Part shown: positions 236 to 37,970 of the stretch, in pieces
Layout of the letters: every line of letters starts with the position of its first letter
Numbering within the stretch: position 1 is the first letter of the stretch
DNA from: a virus
Length of the DNA stretch: 38,508 bases
Reading direction: 5' to 3' (one strand)
Virus record (IMG/VR): IMGVR_UViG_3300034682_000144
Span: 1 to 38,508 of that record
Position numbers and translations under genes: made by a program
The notes under the pieces: model-generated
What the model was told of the DNA's origin: nothing
Seen by the model: the letters and a program-made list of their open reading frames with translations, nothing else
Database searches by the model: none

Positions 236-1378
236 TCAGTCGGCGGAAGGGGATACGCGGGGGAGACTGAAGTCGTAGATATCGAGCATGGCTTCGTCGC
301 GGTGGCCGCTGGCGTCCTGCTTCTGCTTGCGGTCGCCTGGGGTGTCGGTGATGCCGCGGCGCTTGAGGTCGTGCAACGCGAAGCGCTGCTCCTCGGTGAT
401 GACGCCGTCCTTGATTGCTCGGGTGATGAAGCGCTGCCAAGTGCTGTCCAGGCTGGACTTCTGCAGTGCGCCCCCGTGTGCTGCCACGATGATAAAGCGA
501 CGCTCGGCTGCGGCTGGGATGGGAAAGGCCTGGCTTGTCCATACACGTCGCCGGTAGGCCTTGGCCCCTTCCCAGGCTGCCCGGAGTCGTGGCGTCCAGC
601 ACACCACGTTATCGCGGCTGCCCTTGCGCCTGTTGGTCTGCACTCCGTCCACCAGTTCATTCGCGTCAGTGAGGGTGACCGCTTCAATGCCTCGTAGCCG
701 ACATAGGTATGCCAGTTCCATCACGTAGCCCAGGTATTCCGGGCAAGCGCCGGGCTGGCCACGCGTGAGCTGGCCCATGGCATGGGCCCGTGTAATCAGT
801 TCTCCCATTATCTTGGGATTGGGTAGGCGGCGCTGCTTGCGCTCGGCCGGCGCCTCGACGCCCAGGGCGACATTGATCTCCAGATAGCCGCGGTTGCGGC
901 CCCACTGCATGACCCGTCGCAAGTATCGATGGACGTGCGCGGCCTTGGACGGAGTCCCTTCGTCGGCGATCCGGTCGACCAGGCGTTGCACCAGGGCCGA
1001 GGTGAACTTACGCACTGACAGTTCGCCGAGTGGTTTCTGCAGCTTGGTCGGGATGGCCAGCAGCACATCGCGGCAGTATTCATAGTCGTCGCGGGTTTTC
1101 TTTGCGAGCCGCTTGCACTGCGCGCTGGCGTGGAACTCCTTGCACAGGTGGTTGAGGCTTTCCCGATCGATGCAGTTCCGTTCCTCCATGATCCGGTGCA
1201 GGTCGCTGAGCGTTGCTGTACGGCCGGCGATGTTCATCCGCTTACGATTACCGCCTTCGTCTCGCCAGGAGGTGTACCAGACACCCTCCCAGCGGTGGTC
1301 AAAAAAAACGGCCGCCGGAATGGCGGCCTGGTCAATGTGGGCGGGTATGTGCGGGTTGTGTTTACGGGGCCGCCTCAT
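236..1378 (-). CDS. int: Phage tyrosine integrase
   Basis: This 380-residue tyrosine recombinase catalyses integration and excision at the tRNA-Thr site 110 bp downstream. The N-terminal third holds a core-binding SAM-like domain (about residues 75-165). The catalytic part shows Arg in CRLRG (about 229), Lys in NRRKG (about 252), the box HDLKRRG (His336), GH at 358-359 and the nucleophile Tyr368 in IYDF. In the H-x-x-R box the Arg position is Lys339, or the Arg is shifted by one, as in a known phage subfamily with HDLK. The ATG overlaps the stop of the DUF4224 gene by 4 bp. It is the last gene of the early operon. A terminator-like hairpin lies within codons 17-26. Confidence 0.95.
   Translation of the reverse strand: MRRPRKHNPHIPAHIDQAAIPAAVFFDHRWEGVWYTSWRDEGGNRKRMNIAGRTATLSDLHRIMEERNCIDRESLNHLCKEFHASAQCKRLAKKTRDDYEYCRDVLLAIPTKLQKPLGELSVRKFTSALVQRLVDRIADEGTPSKAAHVHRYLRRVMQWGRNRGYLEINVALGVEAPAERKQRRLPNPKIMGELITRAHAMGQLTRGQPGACPEYLGYVMELAYLCRLRGIEAVTLTDANELVDGVQTNRRKGSRDNVVCWTPRLRAAWEGAKAYRRRVWTSQAFPIPAAAERRFIIVAAHGGALQKSSLDSTWQRFITRAIKDGVITEEQRFALHDLKRRGITDTPGDRKQKQDASGHRDEAMLDIYDFSLPRVSPSAD
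1301..1328 (-). terminator. Intragenic terminator-like hairpin in int
   Basis: On the minus strand a perfect 7-bp GC stem (GGCCGCC / GGCGGCC) with a 5-base loop is followed by G and eight Ts. This has the form of a strong intrinsic terminator, but it lies inside int codons 17-26 (Ala-Ala-Ile-Pro-Ala-Ala-Val-Phe-Phe). It could attenuate int within the long early transcript. Whether it terminates in vivo is inference. Confidence 0.5.
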
Positions 1379-3930: not shown

Positions 3931-4502
3931 GCGGCACCTCCCTGAGCCGCGGTATAGAGCTTGGCTACCCCATAGCCCTGTTGCTCCCAGTCTTCGGCCA
4001 GGTTCGGGTCCTGCGTCCAGTCCATTACGTCACCATCCTGCAACTGGGCGAACATGAAGGGCTTCTGTTGCCCTGGCTCGTTCGCCATCAGCATGGCCTC
4101 CATATAGCGGATGGCGCCCATGACTTCGTCGCCGTCTTCCTCGAACACCTTGCTGGCCGTGGCCACAGCACGGGCCACAGCGGTCCGCCAGTCTGCCGGT
4201 GGGTGTTCGGCGGGTTCATCCGCTGCCCACCCGATGGCTCGCCGGCGGCTCGAAAGGTTGAGCGCGTCAGCTGCACCCTGAGTCAGGTACGTAGGTTGGT
4301 GACAGTTCCCATCTGCCAAGTCTCTGATGAACGCCTCCAGGGCATCTATGGCTGCCAGTTCGTGGCCACGGCTCCAGGCGACCACCTTGCCGCCGTCGAC
4401 TTCCTTCGGGACGTTCTGGCCGGTTGCGTCACGGATGACAATGGTGTCGTAGCGAGGTGTGGTAGCCTTTTCGGCGCCGACTTCGGGGGTTTCTACTTGC
4501 AT
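3927..4502 (-). CDS. Hypothetical phage protein, 191 aa
   Basis: This soluble, acidic protein begins MQVETPEVGAEKATTPRYD. The central region includes ADWRTAVARAVATASKVFEE and the tail MFAQLQDGDVMDWTQDPNLA. I do not recognise a family or active site. The ribosome binding site is the conserved AAGGAGAAACGAC just before ATG, shared with two other genes of this operon and preceded by a hairpin (4526-4555). It is one of the few genes in the operon with its own leader rather than a coupled start, which suggests independent translation control. Confidence 0.7.
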   Translation of the reverse strand: MQVETPEVGAEKATTPRYDTIVIRDATGQNVPKEVDGGKVVAWSRGHELAAIDALEAFIRDLADGNCHQPTYLTQGAADALNLSSRRRAIGWAADEPAEHPPADWRTAVARAVATASKVFEEDGDEVMGAIRYMEAMLMANEPGQQKPFMFAQLQDGDVMDWTQDPNLAEDWEQQGYGVAKLYTAAQGGAA

Positions 4503-4555
4503 GTCGTTTCTCCTTGGGGTTGGTCGGCGCCGGGGAGTTGCAGCTCCTCGGCGCC
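4500..4555 (-). repeat. Repeated leader A: hairpin plus conserved RBS
   Basis: On the minus strand a 12-bp hairpin (stem GGCGCCGAGGAG, loop CTGCAA, one G-T pair) is followed by CCCCAAGGAGAAACGACATG. The loop and the RBS block recur in leaders B (5503-5552) and C (6409-6453) of the same operon, while the stem bases differ but still pair. Confidence 0.7.
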
Positions 4556-4561
4556 ACCTGG

Positions 4562-4921
4562 TTACTTGAGGCGGTACTGCTTGCCGTCATCGATGATGTA
4601 GAACTCGACGTCACGAATCGGGTAAACGCCGCCTGGTCCGCCGTGGACAGCAAAGTTTCCGTAGGGTGGTTTGCCTACTCGAACAGGGAACAACTTGTCG
4701 CTCTGGTGCGCGTATTCGCTGGTTCTTTTGATCCGCGCATATAACTGCTGGCCAGATGGTCGGCAGCCGGCGGGGCCATGTGCCGCCTCGAACCCGAGCC
4801 AGGCCGCACGGGTTTCCACATTGGTCGGGTTTCCATTGGCATCAGCGCTTAGGTCATAGCCGTGCTCTTCGGCCCACACCGTGAACCCCAGCATTAAGTT
4901 CAGCTTGTCCAGCGAGCTCAT
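4562..4921 (-). CDS. Hypothetical phage protein, 119 aa
   Basis: It starts MSSLDKLNLMLGFTVWAEEH and contains NVETRAAWLGFEAAHG, a pattern seen in several small phage proteins where a Trp- and Phe-containing helix follows 'TRAAW'. The C-terminal half is beta-rich (DVEFYIIDDGKQYRLK). The start overlaps the upstream stop by ATGA. The function is unknown. The gene is followed by leader A. Confidence 0.7.
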   Translation of the reverse strand: MSSLDKLNLMLGFTVWAEEHGYDLSADANGNPTNVETRAAWLGFEAAHGPAGCRPSGQQLYARIKRTSEYAHQSDKLFPVRVGKPPYGNFAVHGGPGGVYPIRDVEFYIIDDGKQYRLK

Positions 4922-5505
4922 GCTGCACCCCCGACTTTCGCCAAGCGGGCTGCCTCATATTCGCTGGGCAGGAGCTCGATGGCCCCACTGATCCAGCCAG
5001 ATGTTGGTTTGCCCGCAGCGACCTTCTCTTCGTGGTCGGCCTTGTTGATCTCGAAGCCAAGGGCGAAATAGGCGATGTTCTGGTGCACAAAGAAGGCGCC
5101 GCCGCAGAGCAAGAGGTTGCCGGTGTTCACGCTCAGTCGGTCCCAGTAATCAAGGCGGTCCAGAGGAGGCGGGCAATTCGCTTTCCACTGCTCGCACAGA
5201 CGATCGTGCTCACCCCGGATCGCAGCGCGCTGCTCCTTTGTAATGCCCTTTGGCGGTACAGCCTTATGACGCAGGCTCCGGTAGCCATACTCATCAGGGC
5301 GGCGCCAGTGGACGTCCAGTTCAGGACTGGCGGAGAGTTTCACGCCACCGGCGAAGTGCGAGGTAACGTCGTGCATCGGGGCGATAGCGCCCCCGAAGAT
5401 TTTGCCCAACTCGGCCAGGCGCTCATTCAGCTGGTCTTTCGCCTGGTAGAACTCCTGGACGATGGCCACCACCTCGGGAGCCTCGGATTTGTAGTAGTGG
5501 TGCAT
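4918..5505 (-). CDS. Hypothetical phage protein, 195 aa
   Basis: The N-terminus is MHHYYKSEAPEVVAIVQEFY. A helical first section (residues 10-45) is followed by a basic central segment (GITKEQRAAIRGEHDRL) and a mixed C-terminal part. No known motif is visible. It is translated from the conserved AAGGAGAAACGAC site of leader B and ends in a 4-bp overlap with the 119-residue gene. It is likely a conserved accessory protein of Pseudomonas temperate phages. Confidence 0.7.
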   Translation of the reverse strand: MHHYYKSEAPEVVAIVQEFYQAKDQLNERLAELGKIFGGAIAPMHDVTSHFAGGVKLSASPELDVHWRRPDEYGYRSLRHKAVPPKGITKEQRAAIRGEHDRLCEQWKANCPPPLDRLDYWDRLSVNTGNLLLCGGAFFVHQNIAYFALGFEINKADHEEKVAAGKPTSGWISGAIELLPSEYEAARLAKVGGAA

Positions 5506-5552
5506 GTCGTTTCTCCTTGTGGTGATCGCCGACCAGTTGCAGCTGGCCGGCG
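5503..5552 (-). repeat. Repeated leader B: hairpin plus conserved RBS
   Basis: The minus-strand stem CGCCGGCCAG / CTGGTCGGCG (one mismatch) closes the same CTGCAA loop as leaders A and C. It is followed by ACAAGGAGAAACGACATG, which starts the 195-residue gene. Stem sequence differs between copies while pairing is kept. Confidence 0.65.
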
Positions 5553-5558
5553 TTCTGG

Positions 5559-5774
5559 TTATTCGCTGGCCGCGCTGGCCTGCATGTCTGTCGTGATGAC
5601 CTGGACAACCTCTTCACGGCTGTCGGCATAGGCGAATGGCAGTGAGGAGCCTGGACGGGTCACCGGGTACCGCGAGTGCGGCAGCCGGCACTCGGCCACG
5701 GTGTAGCCGCTGTCGCTTACCCAGCACCGCGGGATGACCTGGCCCTCCTGGTTGCGCTTCGCCTGCCACTTCAT
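5559..5774 (-). CDS. Hypothetical phage protein, 71 aa
   Basis: The start at 5774 (MKWQAKRNQEGQVIPRCWVS) overlaps the upstream stop by ATGA and is preferred to the longer frame. The protein is beta-rich in the first half (DSGYTVAECRLP) and has FAYADSREEVVQVITTD near the end. No motif is recognised. It is probably cotranslated with the DUF7673-like gene upstream and is followed by leader B. Confidence 0.7.
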   Translation of the reverse strand: MKWQAKRNQEGQVIPRCWVSDSGYTVAECRLPHSRYPVTRPGSSLPFAYADSREEVVQVITTDMQASAASE

Positions 5775-10174: not shown

Positions 10175-10644
10175 TTCGAATCCCCCTTCGTGTGCAACTG
10201 GATGGTCGCTGTGACCTCGGCCGTGCGTGCGGAGAGGTATTGGTGGTGCGCATCCATGATGAACTTGGCTTCGTCTTCCTCGATGACGCCGTCCTCCAGG
10301 GACTTGGCGATGATCTGGTCGACTACCCCACGTTTGGCAGCAGCCCGCACTGAGCGCTGGTACAGCTCGACGTTGTCCAAGTCTTCGGGCTGGACGAGCG
10401 GCACGAACATGCCGCCGTACATCTTGGCGATGAACTCGGGCAGGTGTGTGGTACCAGCGTCGGTTTCCAGCAGGTGGATCTGATCGTAGGTCAGCGGACG
10501 GCTACCGGCATTCTCATAGACGCGGTTGTCGAACTGCTTCAGCTCATAGCCAAGGCGGGGTGCAGCGCATTCGCGGCCACCTGGATAGGCGCAGACCACG
10601 GCACTCACCACCTGGCGCAGGGTTTCTAGAACTGGGCGCTTCAT
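10171..10644 (-). CDS. CII/YmfL-like phage regulatory protein
   Basis: The protein is 157 residues long. The first 80 contain MKRPVLETLRQVVSAVVCAY, then LGYELKQFDNRVYENAG and PLTYDQIHLLETDAGTTHLPEF. This is the helix-turn-helix layout of the CII-like/CP76 or YmfL family, which regulates lysogenic establishment or replication in temperate phages. The C-terminal half is helical (EDGVIEEDEAKFIMDAHHQY). It is the second gene of the early operon, 29 bp after the first, and its stop overlaps ogr. Confidence 0.75.
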   Translation of the reverse strand: MKRPVLETLRQVVSAVVCAYPGGRECAAPRLGYELKQFDNRVYENAGSRPLTYDQIHLLETDAGTTHLPEFIAKMYGGMFVPLVQPEDLDNVELYQRSVRAAAKRGVVDQIIAKSLEDGVIEEDEAKFIMDAHHQYLSARTAEVTATIQLHTKGDSN

Positions 10645-10673
10645 GTTCTGGTTTCCTCCTTGAGCCAGGGAGC

Positions 10674-10883
10674 TTAATTTTCAGGTCCGGGTTTGATGCC
10701 GAGCAGCACAGCTGCGCGGTGCGCCTCTCCTCGGAGGCACTTTTTCTGGCCTGTTAGCACGGCGTAAACAGTGCTTGGGTGCAGGTTGTGTTGAAGCGCA
10801 AAGGCCTTCACCGAAATGCCCTGTTCTTCAAGGCGTTTGCGGGCTTCTCTGCAGGCTTGCTCGGGTACACAGGTGGCGTGCAT
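10674..10883 (-). CDS. Cro-like HTH regulator (BcepMu gp16-like)
   Basis: The start at 10883 gives a 69-residue protein, MHATCVPEQACREARKRLEE..., with GISVKAFALQHNLHPSTVYA and CLRGEAHRAAVLLGIK. This is the signature of the small phage DNA-binding family named after BcepMu gp16, a single HTH domain. As first gene of the early operon and divergent from the repressor, it probably plays the Cro/Cox role. An in-frame ATG at 10973 would overlap the repressor start and swallow the operator region, so it is rejected. Confidence 0.78.
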   Translation of the reverse strand: MHATCVPEQACREARKRLEEQGISVKAFALQHNLHPSTVYAVLTGQKKCLRGEAHRAAVLLGIKPGPEN

Positions 10884-10967
10884 AGTTCGTAATCGTGCAA
10901 TTTCGTGTAGTGGTATGCGAAGGATGATGCACGATTGTTCATTTGTAAATAGGCAGAGGGAACGTTT
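10884..10967. promoter_or_regulatory. Divergent early/lysogenic operator region
   Basis: This 84-bp intergenic region lies between the Cro-like gene and the repressor. A 9-bp perfect inverted repeat, AATCGTGCA (10891-10899) and TGCACGATT (10928-10936), has centres 37 bp apart, about 3.5 helical turns. The arms are good candidates for repressor or Cro operators that could loop across the early promoter. AGGCAGAGGG at 10951-10960 is the repressor RBS. I cannot fix -10 and -35 boxes with confidence. Confidence 0.65.
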
Positions 10968-11303
10968 GTGCATCTTTCAGAGGAAATAGGTGCGCGCCTC
11001 CAGTCCGAACGCAAGCGTCTGAATCTCAATCAAGAACAATTGGCGAATATTGTCGGCGTATCGAAACGCACGTTGGCGAGCTACGAGAGTGGATCTCGGG
11101 AGGCCGGTTCGTTGCTGCTGAATCTTGCTGCCACAGTCGGAGTCGATGTTCTGTACGTCGTCACTGGGCAGCATTTGCCAGTCGGTGAGAAGACCTTGTC
11201 CGCGGAAGAGCTGGAAATGGTGCAACACGTCCGGGCTCTCGGGGCCGAAGATAAAGGGGCGGTCCTGCGGCTGCTTCGGGCTTTCAGCATCAAACAGGAG
11301 TAG
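10968..11303 (+). CDS. Phage repressor, XRE family, non-cleavable
   Basis: This 111-residue protein begins at GTG. Residues 5-65 form an XRE helix-turn-helix (NQEQLANIVGVSKRTLASYE is the recognition region), and a short helical tail (77-108) probably dimerises. It has no S24 peptidase domain, so RecA-stimulated self-cleavage as in lambda CI is not expected. In this it resembles P2 C. It diverges from the early operon and heads a three-gene plus-strand operon ending at the 11951 terminator, so those genes should be expressed in the lysogen. It is the best candidate for the immunity repressor. Confidence 0.85.
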   Translation: MHLSEEIGARLQSERKRLNLNQEQLANIVGVSKRTLASYESGSREAGSLLLNLAATVGVDVLYVVTGQHLPVGEKTLSAEELEMVQHVRALGAEDKGAVLRLLRAFSIKQE

Positions 11304-11305
11304 GT

Positions 11306-11650
11306 ATGTTCAAAGGGATTTTGATAGGGGTTATTTCCGTAATCGTCGTCGCTATTGCGGGTTGTGGCGCGGATGAGAAGACTGAAACGGTTTCAAGTAA
11401 GGATTTCGGTGATGCTTGGCCTTTCACAGTTGAGCAGATCGATTTGCTTTGCGATGGCCCATCGCCGAAAGCATTGGCCAGGACTCCAGATGGTGTGATT
11501 TACGCACTGAGTGGCAGCGCTCGTTCCAACGCAAAGGACCGGGGCTGGGCTGACGGCCATGACATCACCAAGCCGAATCCGTCGGTGCCATCGATCAAGA
11601 TGGACTACAGCGACTTTGTGAAGCGTGCTCAGGCTCTGTGCGATAGCTGA
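11306..11650 (+). CDS. DUF2511-like lipoprotein
   Basis: It starts 3 bp after the repressor with AGGAG in front. The N-terminus is a hydrophobic signal ending in the lipobox IAGC (Cys near 20), so it should be lipid-anchored. The mature part has KDFGDAWPFTVEQIDLLC and a C-terminal MDYSDFVKRAQALCDS, the pattern of DUF2511 (YebY-like) proteins, with paired Cys residues that could form a disulphide. Expression with the repressor makes it a lysogenic conversion candidate. A role in superinfection exclusion is possible but only inferred from position. Confidence 0.78.
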   Translation: MFKGILIGVISVIVVAIAGCGADEKTETVSSKDFGDAWPFTVEQIDLLCDGPSPKALARTPDGVIYALSGSARSNAKDRGWADGHDITKPNPSVPSIKMDYSDFVKRAQALCDS

Positions 11651-11780
11651 TACCAACAAAAAACTTACTGCTGGGGGCTGGTGGCACGCCTCCCTGTGCT
11701 GACAATCGCTCATTCCCCGGGTGCTTTGGTCGGTGCCGATGTTGGTACCGGGTACCCGAACGTGTGGAGTGGAGTGAAAC

Positions 11781-11942
11781 ATGTCGGTGAAGGAAGAGGT
11801 GCAGAGCAACCAGAGCAAGGTGCTTGAACAATCCGAACTTAGCCAGTACGAACGGATGGTCCTGCAGATGTTCAGGCAGCTCGACGAGCAGGGGAGGAAG
11901 GACATTATCCGGTTCTTGGACGTACTGCTCGCATCTCAGTAG
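11781..11942 (+). CDS. 53-aa helical protein resembling repressor tail
   Basis: The gene starts at ATG with GGAGTGGAG in front and ends 8 bp before a strong terminator. Residues 20-50 (LSQYERMVLQMFRQLDEQ... then DIIRFLDVLL) align without gaps with repressor residues 77-106 at about 8 of 30 identities, plus several conservative hydrophobic matches. It therefore looks like a stand-alone copy of the helical tail used by XRE repressors to self-associate, without an HTH. It may modulate the repressor by forming mixed oligomers. That function is inference; the reading frame itself is well supported by RBS, terminator and composition. Confidence 0.65.
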   Translation: MSVKEEVQSNQSKVLEQSELSQYERMVLQMFRQLDEQGRKDIIRFLDVLLASQ

Positions 11943-11950
11943 CAGGGATG

Positions 11951-11976
11951 AACCCGGCTTAGCGCCGGGTTTTTTG
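11951..11976 (+). terminator. Terminator of repressor operon
   Basis: The stem AACCCGGC / GCCGGGTT with a 5-base loop runs into TTTTTT on the plus strand. It closes the repressor-lipoprotein-53 aa operon. On the minus strand, facing late gene D, the stem lacks a T run. Confidence 0.9.
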
Positions 11977-11984
11977 TGTCCTGA

Positions 11985-13262
11985 TCAAGTTTTCTCGGCC
12001 TGCAGGCGCTTCCATTCACGGTCAACGGCCCGTCGTGCGTTCTTCTCGCTCACGTACACATGCCGCAGCCGTCTCGGCCTGGTCTGATCGCCGGCCGTGA
12101 CTGACTTCTCTTGCCCAGTGGCCGTGTCTCGGTAGAACGCGATGATGCCGGTGTATTCGATTTTGCCTTTCACCCCGTCCTCGAGGAGGCCATCAACGCT
12201 GTCCTCCGGCAACTTGCTTTCTAGCTCCAGGCTGACTGTGTAACCGGAACTGTCCGTCAGGCTGTGTTGCACGTTGCCGCCGTACCAGATGATTTCGTCA
12301 ATTTCGACCTTTACCCCCTGGAGCGTGTACGTCAGTTCGGGGATCAGGTCTGGCAGGCCTTTGGCCAGCGTATAGCTGAGCGTTGCGCTACCCCGCTGCA
12401 GGCGGTTCAGCTCTGCCCTGGCGGCCCGCAACGCGGACTGACGGTCGCTATAGGTGTGCCGCAGGTCCTTGAGGTTTTCGCCGCCCCCGGCGATCGCTTC
12501 CTGCTTTTTCGTGCTGTTGACGTCGTAGTAGTAGGCTCGCACTCCGTCGTAGCTGTTGCGATCTGCCTGGAGGAAGCGGTGCTGGTCGCCGTCACGGCGG
12601 GTGAGGGTGATATGTGGCAGGCTCAGGCCGCTGACGGTCTTGCCGCCACCTGCCGGCATGCATACCAGGCAACCCGCTTTCACGGTGGCCACCGCATCGA
12701 AGTCCTCGCCGAGACGGGTCAGCAGGTTGGCATCGGACTCGTTGGCCTGGTCCAGTTGGTGGATCGTTTGGCTGTCCAACGTGCCGGCTATTTTCGCGGT
12801 GAGTCCGTTGCCCAAGGCAACGTCGCGTAGGACCTTGCCGAGCGTTGTGGTGCTCCAGCTGCGCTCGCGCTTGGTCTTGAGGCCCTTGCGCAGATCCGCC
12901 GATCGGGCGCGGATGCTCAGAACGTCTGGCGCGCCACTGTGCTCTGTTTCATCGACGATGTAGCTGCCCTTGTCGACAAGGCCTGTGTCGCTCCAGCCGA
13001 GCCAGAGGCGTATCACGGCCCCACGGGGCGGGATTGTCAGCAGGCCGTCGTGGTCGCTGAGCGTAATGCTCAGCTGATCCGCTTCCAGCCCCCGGTTGTC
13101 GGTCAATTGCAGGCTCATTAGGCGTGGCGCGATTCGCATGGCGATATCGTTCCCGTCCACGGTGATGCGAAACGCCGGTACCGGATAGGCAGCGTCTCGC
13201 TGCAATCCATCAATGGCATCGCGTAGGTAGCCGGTGACCTTCGAAATAGCCGCGTCAATCAC
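11985..13262 (-). CDS. D: Tail hub/late control protein D
   Basis: This 425-residue homologue of P2 gpD forms the baseplate hub at the tail tip and is the last gene of the tail cluster. Typical family segments are visible: APRLMSLQLTDNRGLEADQL in the first 70 residues, GLKTKRERSWSTTTLGKVLR, and QLDQANESDANLLTRLGEDF in the middle. The start is GTG at 13262, in a GTGA overlap with U. Length is close to that of the P2 family, with a basic extension at the C-terminus. No gene lies between D and the terminator at 11951. Confidence 0.93.
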   Translation of the reverse strand: MIDAAISKVTGYLRDAIDGLQRDAAYPVPAFRITVDGNDIAMRIAPRLMSLQLTDNRGLEADQLSITLSDHDGLLTIPPRGAVIRLWLGWSDTGLVDKGSYIVDETEHSGAPDVLSIRARSADLRKGLKTKRERSWSTTTLGKVLRDVALGNGLTAKIAGTLDSQTIHQLDQANESDANLLTRLGEDFDAVATVKAGCLVCMPAGGGKTVSGLSLPHITLTRRDGDQHRFLQADRNSYDGVRAYYYDVNSTKKQEAIAGGGENLKDLRHTYSDRQSALRAARAELNRLQRGSATLSYTLAKGLPDLIPELTYTLQGVKVEIDEIIWYGGNVQHSLTDSSGYTVSLELESKLPEDSVDGLLEDGVKGKIEYTGIIAFYRDTATGQEKSVTAGDQTRPRRLRHVYVSEKNARRAVDREWKRLQAEKT

Positions 13263-13699
13263 ATCAGGCCTCGCAGAATGTTCAGGCCACCGCTCAATCC
13301 GGAACCGAGCAGGTCGATGCGACCGTCATCGATGCGCTTGAGGCTGATGGTGAAGTCGATGCGCCGTGCAGCGCCGTCTCGGAAGAAGATGGTTCGGTTA
13401 TCGCTCAGGCTTTCGATCACCCATAGGCCGAGCAATCGGCCCGTTCCTTCAACCAGCGGCCAGGCCTTGCCCGTGTCGGCCATCTGGCGCAAGGCATCAA
13501 GGCTGACGGTAGTGCCCGCCAGCTCGGGCAGCAGCAATCCTGGAAGCGTAATGGCATCTTCGCCGCGGCCGAGGAACTGCCGTGCCGGTTGCGCTCCGAC
13601 ACGGTTGTTCGCAGCGTGTCGCCAATCGGTTTGTCGCTGCATTTCCTGGTAGGCCAGGGTGTGCAGGCTGAATACGAACATGCCCAGGGCGAGCATCAT
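13259..13699 (-). CDS. U: Tail protein U
   Basis: This 146-residue homologue of P2 gpU, a tail terminator or completion protein, begins MMLALGMFVFSLHTLAYQEM and includes WRHAANNRVGAQPARQFLG and DDGRIDLLGSGLSGG, all conserved in the family. It lies 6 bp after T and overlaps D by 4 bp, as in P2. A second Met directly after the first leaves the start ambiguous by one codon. Confidence 0.92.
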   Translation of the reverse strand: MMLALGMFVFSLHTLAYQEMQRQTDWRHAANNRVGAQPARQFLGRGEDAITLPGLLLPELAGTTVSLDALRQMADTGKAWPLVEGTGRLLGLWVIESLSDNRTIFFRDGAARRIDFTISLKRIDDGRIDLLGSGLSGGLNILRGLM

Positions 13700-13705
13700 G
13701 GTGGG

Positions 13706-16700
13706 TTACTCCTGGTCTGAAAGGCGGCTGCGCTGACGGGCAGATTTCTCGCTGTTGCGGCGATCCAGTTCTGCGCTGACAGCACGGGCAATGGCTTGTG
13801 GGTCCATTCCAGGTGCCGGGTGAATGTTGATGGTGATGACGTCGTGGCTGTCGCTGATGCTGGGCGCAGCGCCCGCGATAGGAGGCCGGCTGTCCAGGGT
13901 GATACCTGGTGCAGCGTTCGCCGCCAGGGATTGGCCGGTACCGAGCTGCGGAGCAACAGTCTGCAGATCCCGTTGGCCCATGTTGGCCAGCTGCTTGCTC
14001 AGGCTGATGACCTCGGCGGTCGGTCGGTTGGCGTCGACCCGTGGTACCAATGACTGGACGTCAGGCGCTGCGATGTTGGCCAACTGCTTGCTCAGGCTGA
14101 CCACCTCGGCGGCTGGTCGGCTGGCGTCGATCTTCGGCACCAATGCCTGGACGTCAGGCGCTGTGATGTTGGCCAGCTGCTTGCTCAGGCTGATGACCTC
14201 AGCAGCCGGCCGGCCGGCGTCGACTTGAGGAGCCGACGCCAGGACCTCTTGCGGTGCGACCTTGGCCAATTGTTTGCTCAGGCTGAGCACTTCGGCAGGG
14301 CGCTGCTGGCCCGATCCGGCCGGTGGCACCGCACCTTGGATGTCCAGGCGCCCGACCTTGGCCAACTGGCTATTCAGCTCGGCAATGTTCGCGGGAATCG
14401 CCTGATCAACGCCTGCCGTCGCAAAGTTTTTGTCCAGCGTCCCGGCTTGGGCCAACTGCGCGCCTAAACTGCTTGCGTTGGTAACCAGGCCCTTACTCGC
14501 CGCGACTTCTGGCGCGTTGGCCTGCAGATCGAACTGACCGGCCTTCGTCAGGTCTTGCCCCATGCGAGCGACGGCATCGAGCGGAGCTTTCGCGCCGGCA
14601 TTGACGCCGACGGCCAGGCCCTCGGTCGTGAAGCCACCCAGCTCGGCAAACACCCGTGACGGGCTGTGGATGCCGAGCTTCTCTTTGAACCAGCCAATGG
14701 CTGAATCTCCGAGATTGCCAATGGCGTTCTTGATCTGCCCCAGGCCTGCCAACAGGCCATTAACCAGACCGTTGACGATCATGCTGCCGAACTCGGTGAA
14801 GCGGGTCGGCAGTTCGATGCCAAGGTAGTTCAACACTCCCGCGAAGGCCTGGTAGATCAGGCCGATCGGGCTGAAGTTGGCCAGAACGGTGAGAATGCCG
14901 CCGATGCCAGCACTGAAGCCCGCGCGAATTTCGGCCCAGGAATTGGCGAAATACGCTTTGACCTGGTCCCAGTTTTGATAGAGCAGGTACGCACCGCCGG
15001 CTAAAACTGCGACGACAGCAGCAATGGCCAGCGCTACAGGGTTCATGGCCAAGCCCCACAAGGCGATGCTGACAGTGCGAATTGCCGTCAGCAGCCCGCC
15101 GCCGAGCACACTGGCCAGCTTCCCGACCACCGGCAGTACGCCGGCGCCCTTCACGCTGAACAGCGTCATGCCATAGCGCACCATGGCGAAGGGGCCGAGC
15201 AGGCTGGCCATGGTGATCGCCAGGGCCCCGAAGGCTGCGGCGAGCACCGCGACGGCCGCAACAACCTTGACCAGGCCGCCCGCCAGCCCAGGGTTCTCTC
15301 GGGCCCAGGCGCCGACGCTGGCTGCCATTTCACCCAGAGTAGAGATCAGACCCTTGAGTTCTGGAGCGATTGCCGCACCAAACTCGGCCATGGCGTTGGT
15401 GAAGCTGCCCTCGGCCGCTTCCATGATGTTACTCAGCGTTCCCAGTTGCTCGTTGACGCGAGTACGCAAGTCGGCCTGGTCCTGGAGCTTTTGCTGCACC
15501 TCCTGATACCCGGCCAGGCCCTTGTTCATCATGGTGTTGAGGACGGCCACGGTCTCGGCGTCGTCGCCGAACAGCGACTTGATCGTCGCTGTACGGTCTT
15601 CGTCGTTGAGTACTTTGAGCTTCTCGATCTGCTTGTAGAGGTTCTCCAGACCCGCGAAGTTGCCATCGTCGTTTGTGAAGTTGAGTTTGATTCCTCGGCT
15701 TTTCAGCGCTGTCGAGTCGTTGACATCCTCGACCCCACCCTTGTCCAGACCTGCCTGGAAGATCTTGCGGTAGGCGTTACCGGCAGCACCGCCCTCCATA
15801 CCGGCCTGGTCCATCATGATAAGCAAAGGCCCAAGCTCTTTGGCCGCTTCGATGCCGGTTTTCTTGATGACGTCCATTACCGGCGCGATTTTGCTGAAGC
15901 CTTGCAACATGTTGCCTGGGTCAACGCCGGCATAGAACCCGCGCTGAATGGTGTCCATCAACGCCATCATGTCTTTTTCAGATGTGCGTGTAGCGTCCTG
16001 CATCTTCGCCGCGAACTCAGCCGATTCCTCCACCGGCATCTTCAACTGTACGCCCAGGTAGGCGGCCGCTTCACCGGTACCGCCAAGGATGCTCTGTGCG
16101 CTCAGGCCCTGCCGGCGCAGCATGGTCATCATGTTCTGGAAGTCGGCAGTGGTGCCGGGCAGGCGATCGCCCAGGCGTGTGGCGAGGTCGGTGATCTTCT
16201 GGAAGTCTTCGGCCACCTGGCCGTTGCTGCCCATCATCGAGACCTTCAGCTGTGTGGCCGAATCCTCGTTGGGTGCAAAGGCTTGAATCGCAGCCTTCAC
16301 CGGCTGTGCTGCGGCGTAACCGGTGGCCAGGCCGGCCGCGCCGGTACCGGCCATGCTCGCTCCCAGGCGTTGTGCTTTTTCCAACTCGCTACGGGCCTTG
16401 GCCAGCTTCGCCTGCTTGGCCGCCAGCTGGTCCATACGCTTGGTCTGGGCGCTGATGGCTTCGTTGGTGGCGCTGATCTGGTCTCGCAGCTTGCGCTCAT
16501 GGCTTGCCAGGTCGCGAGTACTGATCCCAGCGGCCGACAGTTTGGTGCGCAGAGCCTGGAGGCCCTGCTCTTGTGAGGCATGCTGGGATTTCAGGGCCCG
16601 AGCCTCGCGCAGGGCGGTGCGGAACTCCTGGTTGAGCCCCTGCATCGGTGCACGGGCTTCCTGCAGTTGGTTGCCAAGCGCCGACAGGCGCTCGCGATGC

Positions 16701-37027: not shown

Positions 37028-37105
<78 letters not shown>

Positions 37106-37780: not shown

Positions 37781-37905
37781 GGGTCGCTCTGGCGACTGGG
37801 TGTGAGAACCCGACTTGAATAAGCGCTACTCGCCATGGTGGTCGTACGTGGGCAGACCTCGGTCTGGCCGGGCTTCCTTATTCACTCGGTTTCTCACCCT
37901 GCGTA
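37781..37905 (+). ncRNA. C4-antisense-like structured RNA
   Basis: The RNA has a 5' hairpin (GTCGC-TCTG-GCGAC, 37783-37796) and nested long-range stems: GTGAGAACC (37802-37810) with GGTTTCTCAC (37888-37897), and TGAATAAG (37816-37823) with CTTATTCA (37877-37884). Inside is the hairpin CAGAC-CTCG-GTCTG (37853-37866). The two 3' strands are also complementary to GTGAGAAA (37925-37932) and GTGAATAAGG (37954-37963), just before the DUF3077 gene; the second contains its RBS. This is the a'/b' versus a/b logic of phage P1 C4 RNA. Confidence 0.7.
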
Positions 37906-37970
37906 CGGCTGCCGCCCCAAATCCGTGAGAAAGATTTTTGGCAGTCTCCTTCCGTGAATAAGGATTTGCC

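Follow-up and report, generated by a model that had tools for sequence, protein, structure and literature searches.

A putative stand-alone copy of a repressor tail and its candidate structured RNA leader in Pseudomonas prophages

The Bacillus subtilis genes sinI and sinR are neighbours, and SinI is a small partner of the repressor SinR. Residues 74–111 of SinR are described as the part of the protein that both tetramerises and binds SinI (PMC3163267). A second kind of small partner is found in the TF-smORF modules which, as presented in PMC10432266, encode a small protein through which a phage inactivates its own repressor with no DNA damage involved; the smORFs of that account are without homologues and lie divergent from an activating transcription factor gene. 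Here we describe a 53-residue microprotein encoded in the immunity region of a Pseudomonas P2/phiCTX-like prophage that is contained in a virus record of 38,508 bases (the window). Among the papers listed by our literature searches, none concerned this microprotein or the leader that precedes it.

The plus-strand immunity region reads, in the ORF list, repressor, DUF2511 gene, a 130-bp gap, the 53-aa ORF and a terminator. The gene positions given in the earlier note hold for all three ORFs: repressor 10968–11303, DUF2511 protein 11306–11650 and microprotein 11781–11942, the last with a GGAG at 11771–11774 before its start codon. So does its terminator behind the 53-residue protein, an intrinsic element on the plus strand (11950–11976) with a 9-pair stem at 11950–11972 followed by a T-rich tail. 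The stem is kept in five aligned loci and faces the convergent late tail gene D (11985–13262, minus strand), which shows 72.8–75.9% DNA identity to the tail/D genes of Pseudomonas phages, the tail gene of phage Dobby among them. One relative (L002) has a 447-aa plus-strand ORF (4355–5698) after the microprotein, where others have D. On the other side, divergent from the repressor, lies a Cox-like HTH protein of the BcepMu gp16 family (10674–10883, minus strand; TIGR04111, E 1.2e-21; phrog_925, E 4.7e-23), whose start at 10883 was picked by comparing relatives. A scan for sigma-70-type promoter-like sequences found none.

The prophage ends are likely marked by a tRNA-Thr gene (37030–37105, minus strand), an 18-base piece of whose 3′ part forms a direct repeat (89–106 and 37037–37054); these repeats are the likely attachment sites, and the integrase (236–1378, minus strand) adjoins the left copy. 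We also note a C4 antisense RNA (RF01695) at 37831–37919 on the plus strand, which at 62.5 bits exceeds its gathering score of 45. Because it is located beyond the tRNA-Thr gene it probably lies outside the prophage, and the two ORFs beside it are without a Pfam match.

The repressor is an XRE-type immunity repressor of 111 aa (HTH_3, E 1.1e-8; phrog_8, E 2.6e-14), consisting of an HTH head and a C-terminal two-helix tail, with the tail helices placed at residues 79–89 and 93–109 in an AF2 monomer model (pLDDT 84.5). A Foldseek search of the PDB with this model returns SinR (1b0n_A) as match 5, over 107 columns and with E 1.9e-3, and its neighbours also include entries presented as phage repressors solved with small antirepressors (9sf2 and 9iaq; E 5.6e-3 and 0.024). 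The repressors of phages Sirocco (L054, 2501–2857) and Dobby (L055, 2495–2836) have nearly the same tails and different HTH heads, and the immunity head seems to have been exchanged inside the repressor gene in this pair.

The microprotein is a real gene under purifying selection. Its median dN/dS is 0.25, from the 34 of 153 pairs with usable dS in a set that is full length in 18 of 26 coding sequences. The product is a short stand-alone helical hairpin (residues 20–53) with no predicted DNA-binding domain; in an AF2 monomer model the helices span residues 22–33 and 36–51, with pLDDT 93–96 in blocks 21–50. A Pfam search at E up to 1 returned no family, SinI included. Fold searches with the microprotein give a similarly sparse picture: the viral matches are headed by repressor proteins (DicA, CI and XRE), all of them weak (E at least 0.69), and the PDB search with the microprotein alone gave four uninformative matches (best E 2.8; best Z 2.3 on re-comparison).

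Relatives were found among viral contigs at 3 loci with the single protein as query and at 14 with an alignment, plus one locus from a genome collection; within the 14-member alignment, identity to the window microprotein is 49–70%. Searching 398 Pseudomonas genomes with a profile brought in diverged members. The 29 loci from that search (L059–L087) comprise 28 with a small ORF and one (L084) with an AmrZ-like protein, and an XRE repressor stands upstream on the same strand in 25 of the 28; the other three, the 3-kb loci L079, L082 and L083, yielded no such repressor. Both repressor and microprotein are present in 61 of 70 examined loci, all told 48 distinct pairs from Pseudomonas prophages, the latter being the figure to use since some contigs were fetched twice. 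Neither of two microprotein variants had a tblastn match in 50,697 phage records, and the family is therefore scarcely represented among isolated phages.

Between single sequences, the likeness of microprotein and repressor is weak: in a search of 4023 ORFs, the microprotein profile gives the window repressor 4.6 bits. Comparison of families by hhalign, using 47 microproteins and 47 repressors (the frameshifted L034 pair was left out of the 48 here and in the distance comparison below), gives Prob 95.5 and E 1.6e-8, the E-value to be read with the knowledge that block shuffles attain E 1.4e-6 and that hhalign E-values come out too optimistic when the helices are short and amphipathic. The alignment runs over 44 ungapped columns and registers microprotein residues 9–52 to repressor core positions 63–106, and the HTH head gives Prob 0.2. 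None of 200 column shuffles reaches the real score of 43.5; the best block shuffle scores 28.9, the best full shuffle 14.9 and the reversed profile 19.7. Smaller alignments gave Prob 69 and E 4.3e-5 for microprotein against tail. By eye, the two families have in common the pattern L-S/T-x-x-E ... F/Y/V-R-x-L ... R-L/F. The earlier note had aligned the microprotein with the helical tail of the repressor, and that alignment is borne out by family profiles over residues 9–52, with scores far above those of the reversed and shuffled controls. As judged from these profiles, the microprotein reproduces, as a separate protein, the oligomerisation tail that XRE-type prophage repressors carry. Mixed oligomers with the repressor, also proposed in that note, would be possible because the microprotein appears as a stand-alone two-helix tail that recurs behind repressors.

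The natural candidate partner of the microprotein is the neighbouring repressor, and we give roughly even chances to the microprotein acting on it as an antirepressor, or tuner, in the manner of SinI or AimX. In such a mechanism, (i) the microprotein would hook onto the tail hairpin of the repressor as SinI does onto that of SinR; (ii) it would cap or re-size the repressor oligomer, so that repression would be weakened or tuned; (iii) the leader hairpin, acting as RNA, would keep the microprotein scarce in the lysogen, or make its dose there conditional, and (iv) the DUF2511 protein would be exchangeable secreted cargo, outside the switch.

Two sets of distance comparisons bear on this antirepressor reading. 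Across 47 loci, microprotein distances correlate with those of the tail at r 0.80 vs 0.37 for the HTH head. This apparently specific mirror-tree signal is lost in a linkage control within the 26 DUF2511 loci, where the correlation is 0.85 for microprotein and D (n = 14, the loci of the 26 in which D genes were identified), 0.83 for tail and DUF2511 and 0.51 for microprotein and tail. Distance correlations in these loci are therefore explained by gene position, and the covariation of microprotein and tail within the DUF2511 group looks like linkage and is no stronger. In four locus pairs, moreover, the microprotein hairpins are near-identical (distance < 0.05) and the repressor tails 42–48% different, with 26% in a fifth pair, and the cognate tail is no closer to its microprotein than a random tail (mean percentile 0.50). 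The near-identical microproteins with divergent tails count against the antirepressor reading, as does the equally good match to the tail of a host protein, AmrZ.

AmrZ is a chromosomally encoded ribbon-helix-helix host regulator for alginate, motility and biofilm, and the host protein matched by our profile is presumably AmrZ, going by its sequence and an Arc domain (PF03869, E 2.4e-26). An alternative that we consider unlikely is that the microprotein mimics this regulator, binding the AmrZ C-terminal oligomerisation domain and altering its assembly so that the surface of the lysogen changes. The profiles of the C-terminal domain and the microprotein align with Prob 95.6 and E 1.2e-8, at a real score of 44.4 vs 26.6 for the best of 200 shuffles, and the N-terminal part of AmrZ gives Prob 0.07; the microprotein is 34% identical to the C-terminal domain over 38 aa vs 20% to the repressor tail. 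That domain, residues 67–108, is described in a 2012 paper as having no similarity to other proteins and is proposed there to oligomerise (PMC3325190).

Genome searches point the same way. A search of one whole genome, with matches accepted up to E 10, ranks the AmrZ-like gene first once the microprotein itself is set aside (E 0.016), and matches at E <= 0.1 occur in 382 of the 398 Pseudomonas genomes. Most of the genome matches listed are ORFs of ~110–145 aa matched at profile positions 15–40, and all 18 that were inspected (L052, L084 and 16 fetched) are AmrZ-like. In locus L111, a leader match (model R1, E 0.0027) even precedes an AmrZ-like gene. The Arc/AmrZ-like protein of that locus (1575–1907, reverse complement) carries the same tail hairpin, with E 1.8e-4 to the microprotein profile. 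Against AmrZ as the partner, the microprotein gene sits in an immunity operon beside the repressor, the single-genome E-values are just ~0.01–0.05, and the hairpin is common to the repressor too, so the likeness may reflect only a common module. A bolder version, which we hold to be doubtful, is that a new structured mRNA leader and the microprotein form a mobile cassette in Pseudomonas prophages, that the hairpin is a module common to phage repressors and AmrZ and that the microprotein enters oligomers of AmrZ, or of AmrZ and the repressor, thereby coupling the lysogeny switch to host control of biofilm and motility.

The sign of the effect on the repressor could also be the reverse of that in the antirepressor reading, with the microprotein acting as a co-repressor whose entry into the repressor oligomer would make repression stronger or more stable. 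The same homology and gene order speak for this, and its position on the same strand behind the repressor makes production in the lysogen possible. The microprotein is without a DNA-binding domain, however, and SinI, its best-known relative in design, is described as abolishing DNA binding (PMC3163267). We regard a co-repressor as rather unlikely and return to the antirepressor reading, in which the leader would set the dose.

The conserved leader of the microprotein (11676–11783, plus strand) comprises a 5′ block (11676–11706), a hairpin and the ribosome-binding region. Model R1, built from 22 leaders with the window itself in the alignment, has its sole window match here (E 3.2e-30). In the hairpin (11718–11758, plus strand), a 5-nt bulge in the 5′ arm lies between two helices. 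Over 13 loci, 97.7% of cells are paired and 8 of 17 pairs show two-sided changes, a count reached in none of 500 shuffles. When 22 sequences are aligned without reference to structure, 98.2% of 330 cells are paired and 7 of 15 pairs change on both sides (again 0 of 500 shuffles), and sliding the hairpin partners by 1–3 columns drops pairing to 34–44%. A diverged set of 18 leaders has two-sided changes at 12 of 15 pairs, but was aligned to the model and is hence biased to it.

Might this intergenic element be a DNA operator or promoter rather than a regulatory RNA? Its hexamers, GGYRCC, are near-palindromic with a 12-bp period, and the 5′ block is conserved in sequence without supported structure and could well serve as a promoter or as a site for a protein. 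Departures from Watson–Crick pairing in the hairpin, however, include 62 G.U and no A.C among 330 cells (alignment A7), whereas nothing in a DNA palindrome would favour G.U pairs on one strand; and covariation extends to the outer helix, which lies beyond the inner hexamers. The same G.U and A.C counts identify the plus strand as the folding strand. In alignment A8, which was aligned by the structure model and takes in two probably chance matches (E 0.052 and 0.74), the counts are 35 and 5 of 260 cells. A DNA site in place of the RNA is accordingly graded as improbable, and we treat the leader, whose hairpin covaries and stands at a fixed place, as a candidate cis-regulatory structured RNA. 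It appears to be new: the leader had no Rfam match at gathering scores, and none when E-values up to 5 were allowed. Two further ideas were dropped. Pairing of a GUGU with the start codon occurs in one fold; it lacks two-sided covariation and is missing from the fold of the larger alignment. Sigma-54 and AmrZ DNA sites in the leader were judged by eye, and neither is conserved enough to claim.

The leader nearly always stands before these microproteins. In viral contigs, the exact leader motif is followed by a microprotein start 30–31 nt downstream in 23 of 23 cases (one of the ORFs has a later frameshift, another is truncated where its locus ends, and 11 of the contigs were already known). 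The covariance model finds 26 places in 24 of the 398 Pseudomonas genomes, 21 of which precede ORFs also found by the protein profile. The leaders of L101 and L105 precede ORFs of 42–43 aa that weakly resemble the microprotein, L109 has no recognised small ORF behind its leader and the L113 match is probably chance. Conversely, a leader match at E <= 0.01 is present in 19 of the 28 small-ORF loci and absent from L070, L072, L073, L076, L079, L082, L085, L086 and L087. A pattern search with the 5′ block of the L111 leader, allowing three mismatches, hit 17 places spread over 16 of 298 genomes, most of them random-looking.

The gene between the repressor and the leader encodes, in the window, a DUF2511 protein in lipoprotein form (11306–11650, plus strand; PF10709, E 2.9e-8, 34.4 bits against a gathering cut-off of 21; phrog_2950, E 1e-18). 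It had been called lipid-anchored, and the window protein does have a lipobox (IAGC), but the trait is not conserved: the lipobox is present in 9 of the 26 DUF2511 relatives, the window counted, and absent from the other 17, which start with other signal-like stretches. Judged from their starts, DUF2511 proteins are predicted to be secreted. No match to the window protein was found by tblastn in the 50,697 phage records.

DUF2511 is what fills the slot in the window's group, and the content varies elsewhere: L101 and L105 have a protein of 156–157 aa with a signal-like start, L109 has a protein of 281 aa, and in L063–L065 and L067 the repressor and microprotein are separated by 183–218 bases. 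The DUF2511 gene is thus one of several exchangeable genes in this position and, because the gene before the leader varies, leader and microprotein look like a unit of their own. The suggestion that the microprotein is the third gene of one operon therefore needs amending, since a conserved structured leader of its own accompanies the microprotein whatever gene precedes. In Dobby, a 116-aa protein with a signal-like start (L055, 3155–3505, plus strand) lies behind a 38-aa ORF and is a probable further secreted product of an immunity region.

That the microprotein is a functionless vestigial duplicate of the repressor tail, as the one frameshifted family member (L034 and L066) might suggest, is very improbable given purifying selection, 48 distinct pairs and a conserved leader and start site.

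If the antirepressor reading is true, Gram-negative prophages would commonly control a repressor in the SinI manner, through a separate copy of the repressor tail, and a regulatory RNA without an Rfam match would be part of the device. The C-terminal domain of AmrZ would gain its first relatives, where PMC3325190 gives none. A 53-residue reagent could then be used to probe both the switch-off of short XRE repressors that lack a protease domain and the role of the AmrZ tail.

How, then, does this locus compare with the systems described? One case among named phages is that of Dobby and Sirocco (Citexvirus), whose 38-aa ORF behind the repressor, annotated as hypothetical, has an R1 leader directly before it (E 1.3e-5) like the microprotein, but is too diverged for the microprotein profile (E 2.5 among 4023 ORFs). 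AmrZ shares the hairpin profile with the microprotein in its C-terminal domain and, unlike it, has a ribbon-helix-helix DNA-binding domain. In keeping with the TF-smORF modules, which act without DNA damage, no SOS box (CTG-N10-CAG) lies at 10366–13727 of the window; unlike the smORFs, the microprotein resembles the repressor tail, and its neighbours are DUF2511 on the same strand and the convergent D, with no adjacent divergent transcription factor gene.

The arbitrium phages offer a further parallel, in that AimX is presented in 9sf2 and 9iaq as a small antirepressor on a phage repressor, the fold of which resembles that of the window repressor; the microprotein profile did not retrieve AimX itself from the PDB. 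The best-known relative in design is SinI/SinR (1b0n), in which the XRE repressor oligomerises through a two-helix tail and its small partner is built from the same hairpin. The microprotein likewise is a predicted stand-alone hairpin, resembles the repressor tail and is encoded next to the repressor. It differs in being found in Pseudomonas prophages, where a structured RNA leader and often also a gene for a secreted protein stand between it and the repressor, and a search of PDB sequences with matches accepted up to E 10 returned no SinI chain. Although it falls outside the SinI sequence family by both Pfam and PDB searches, the microprotein may nonetheless act like SinI.
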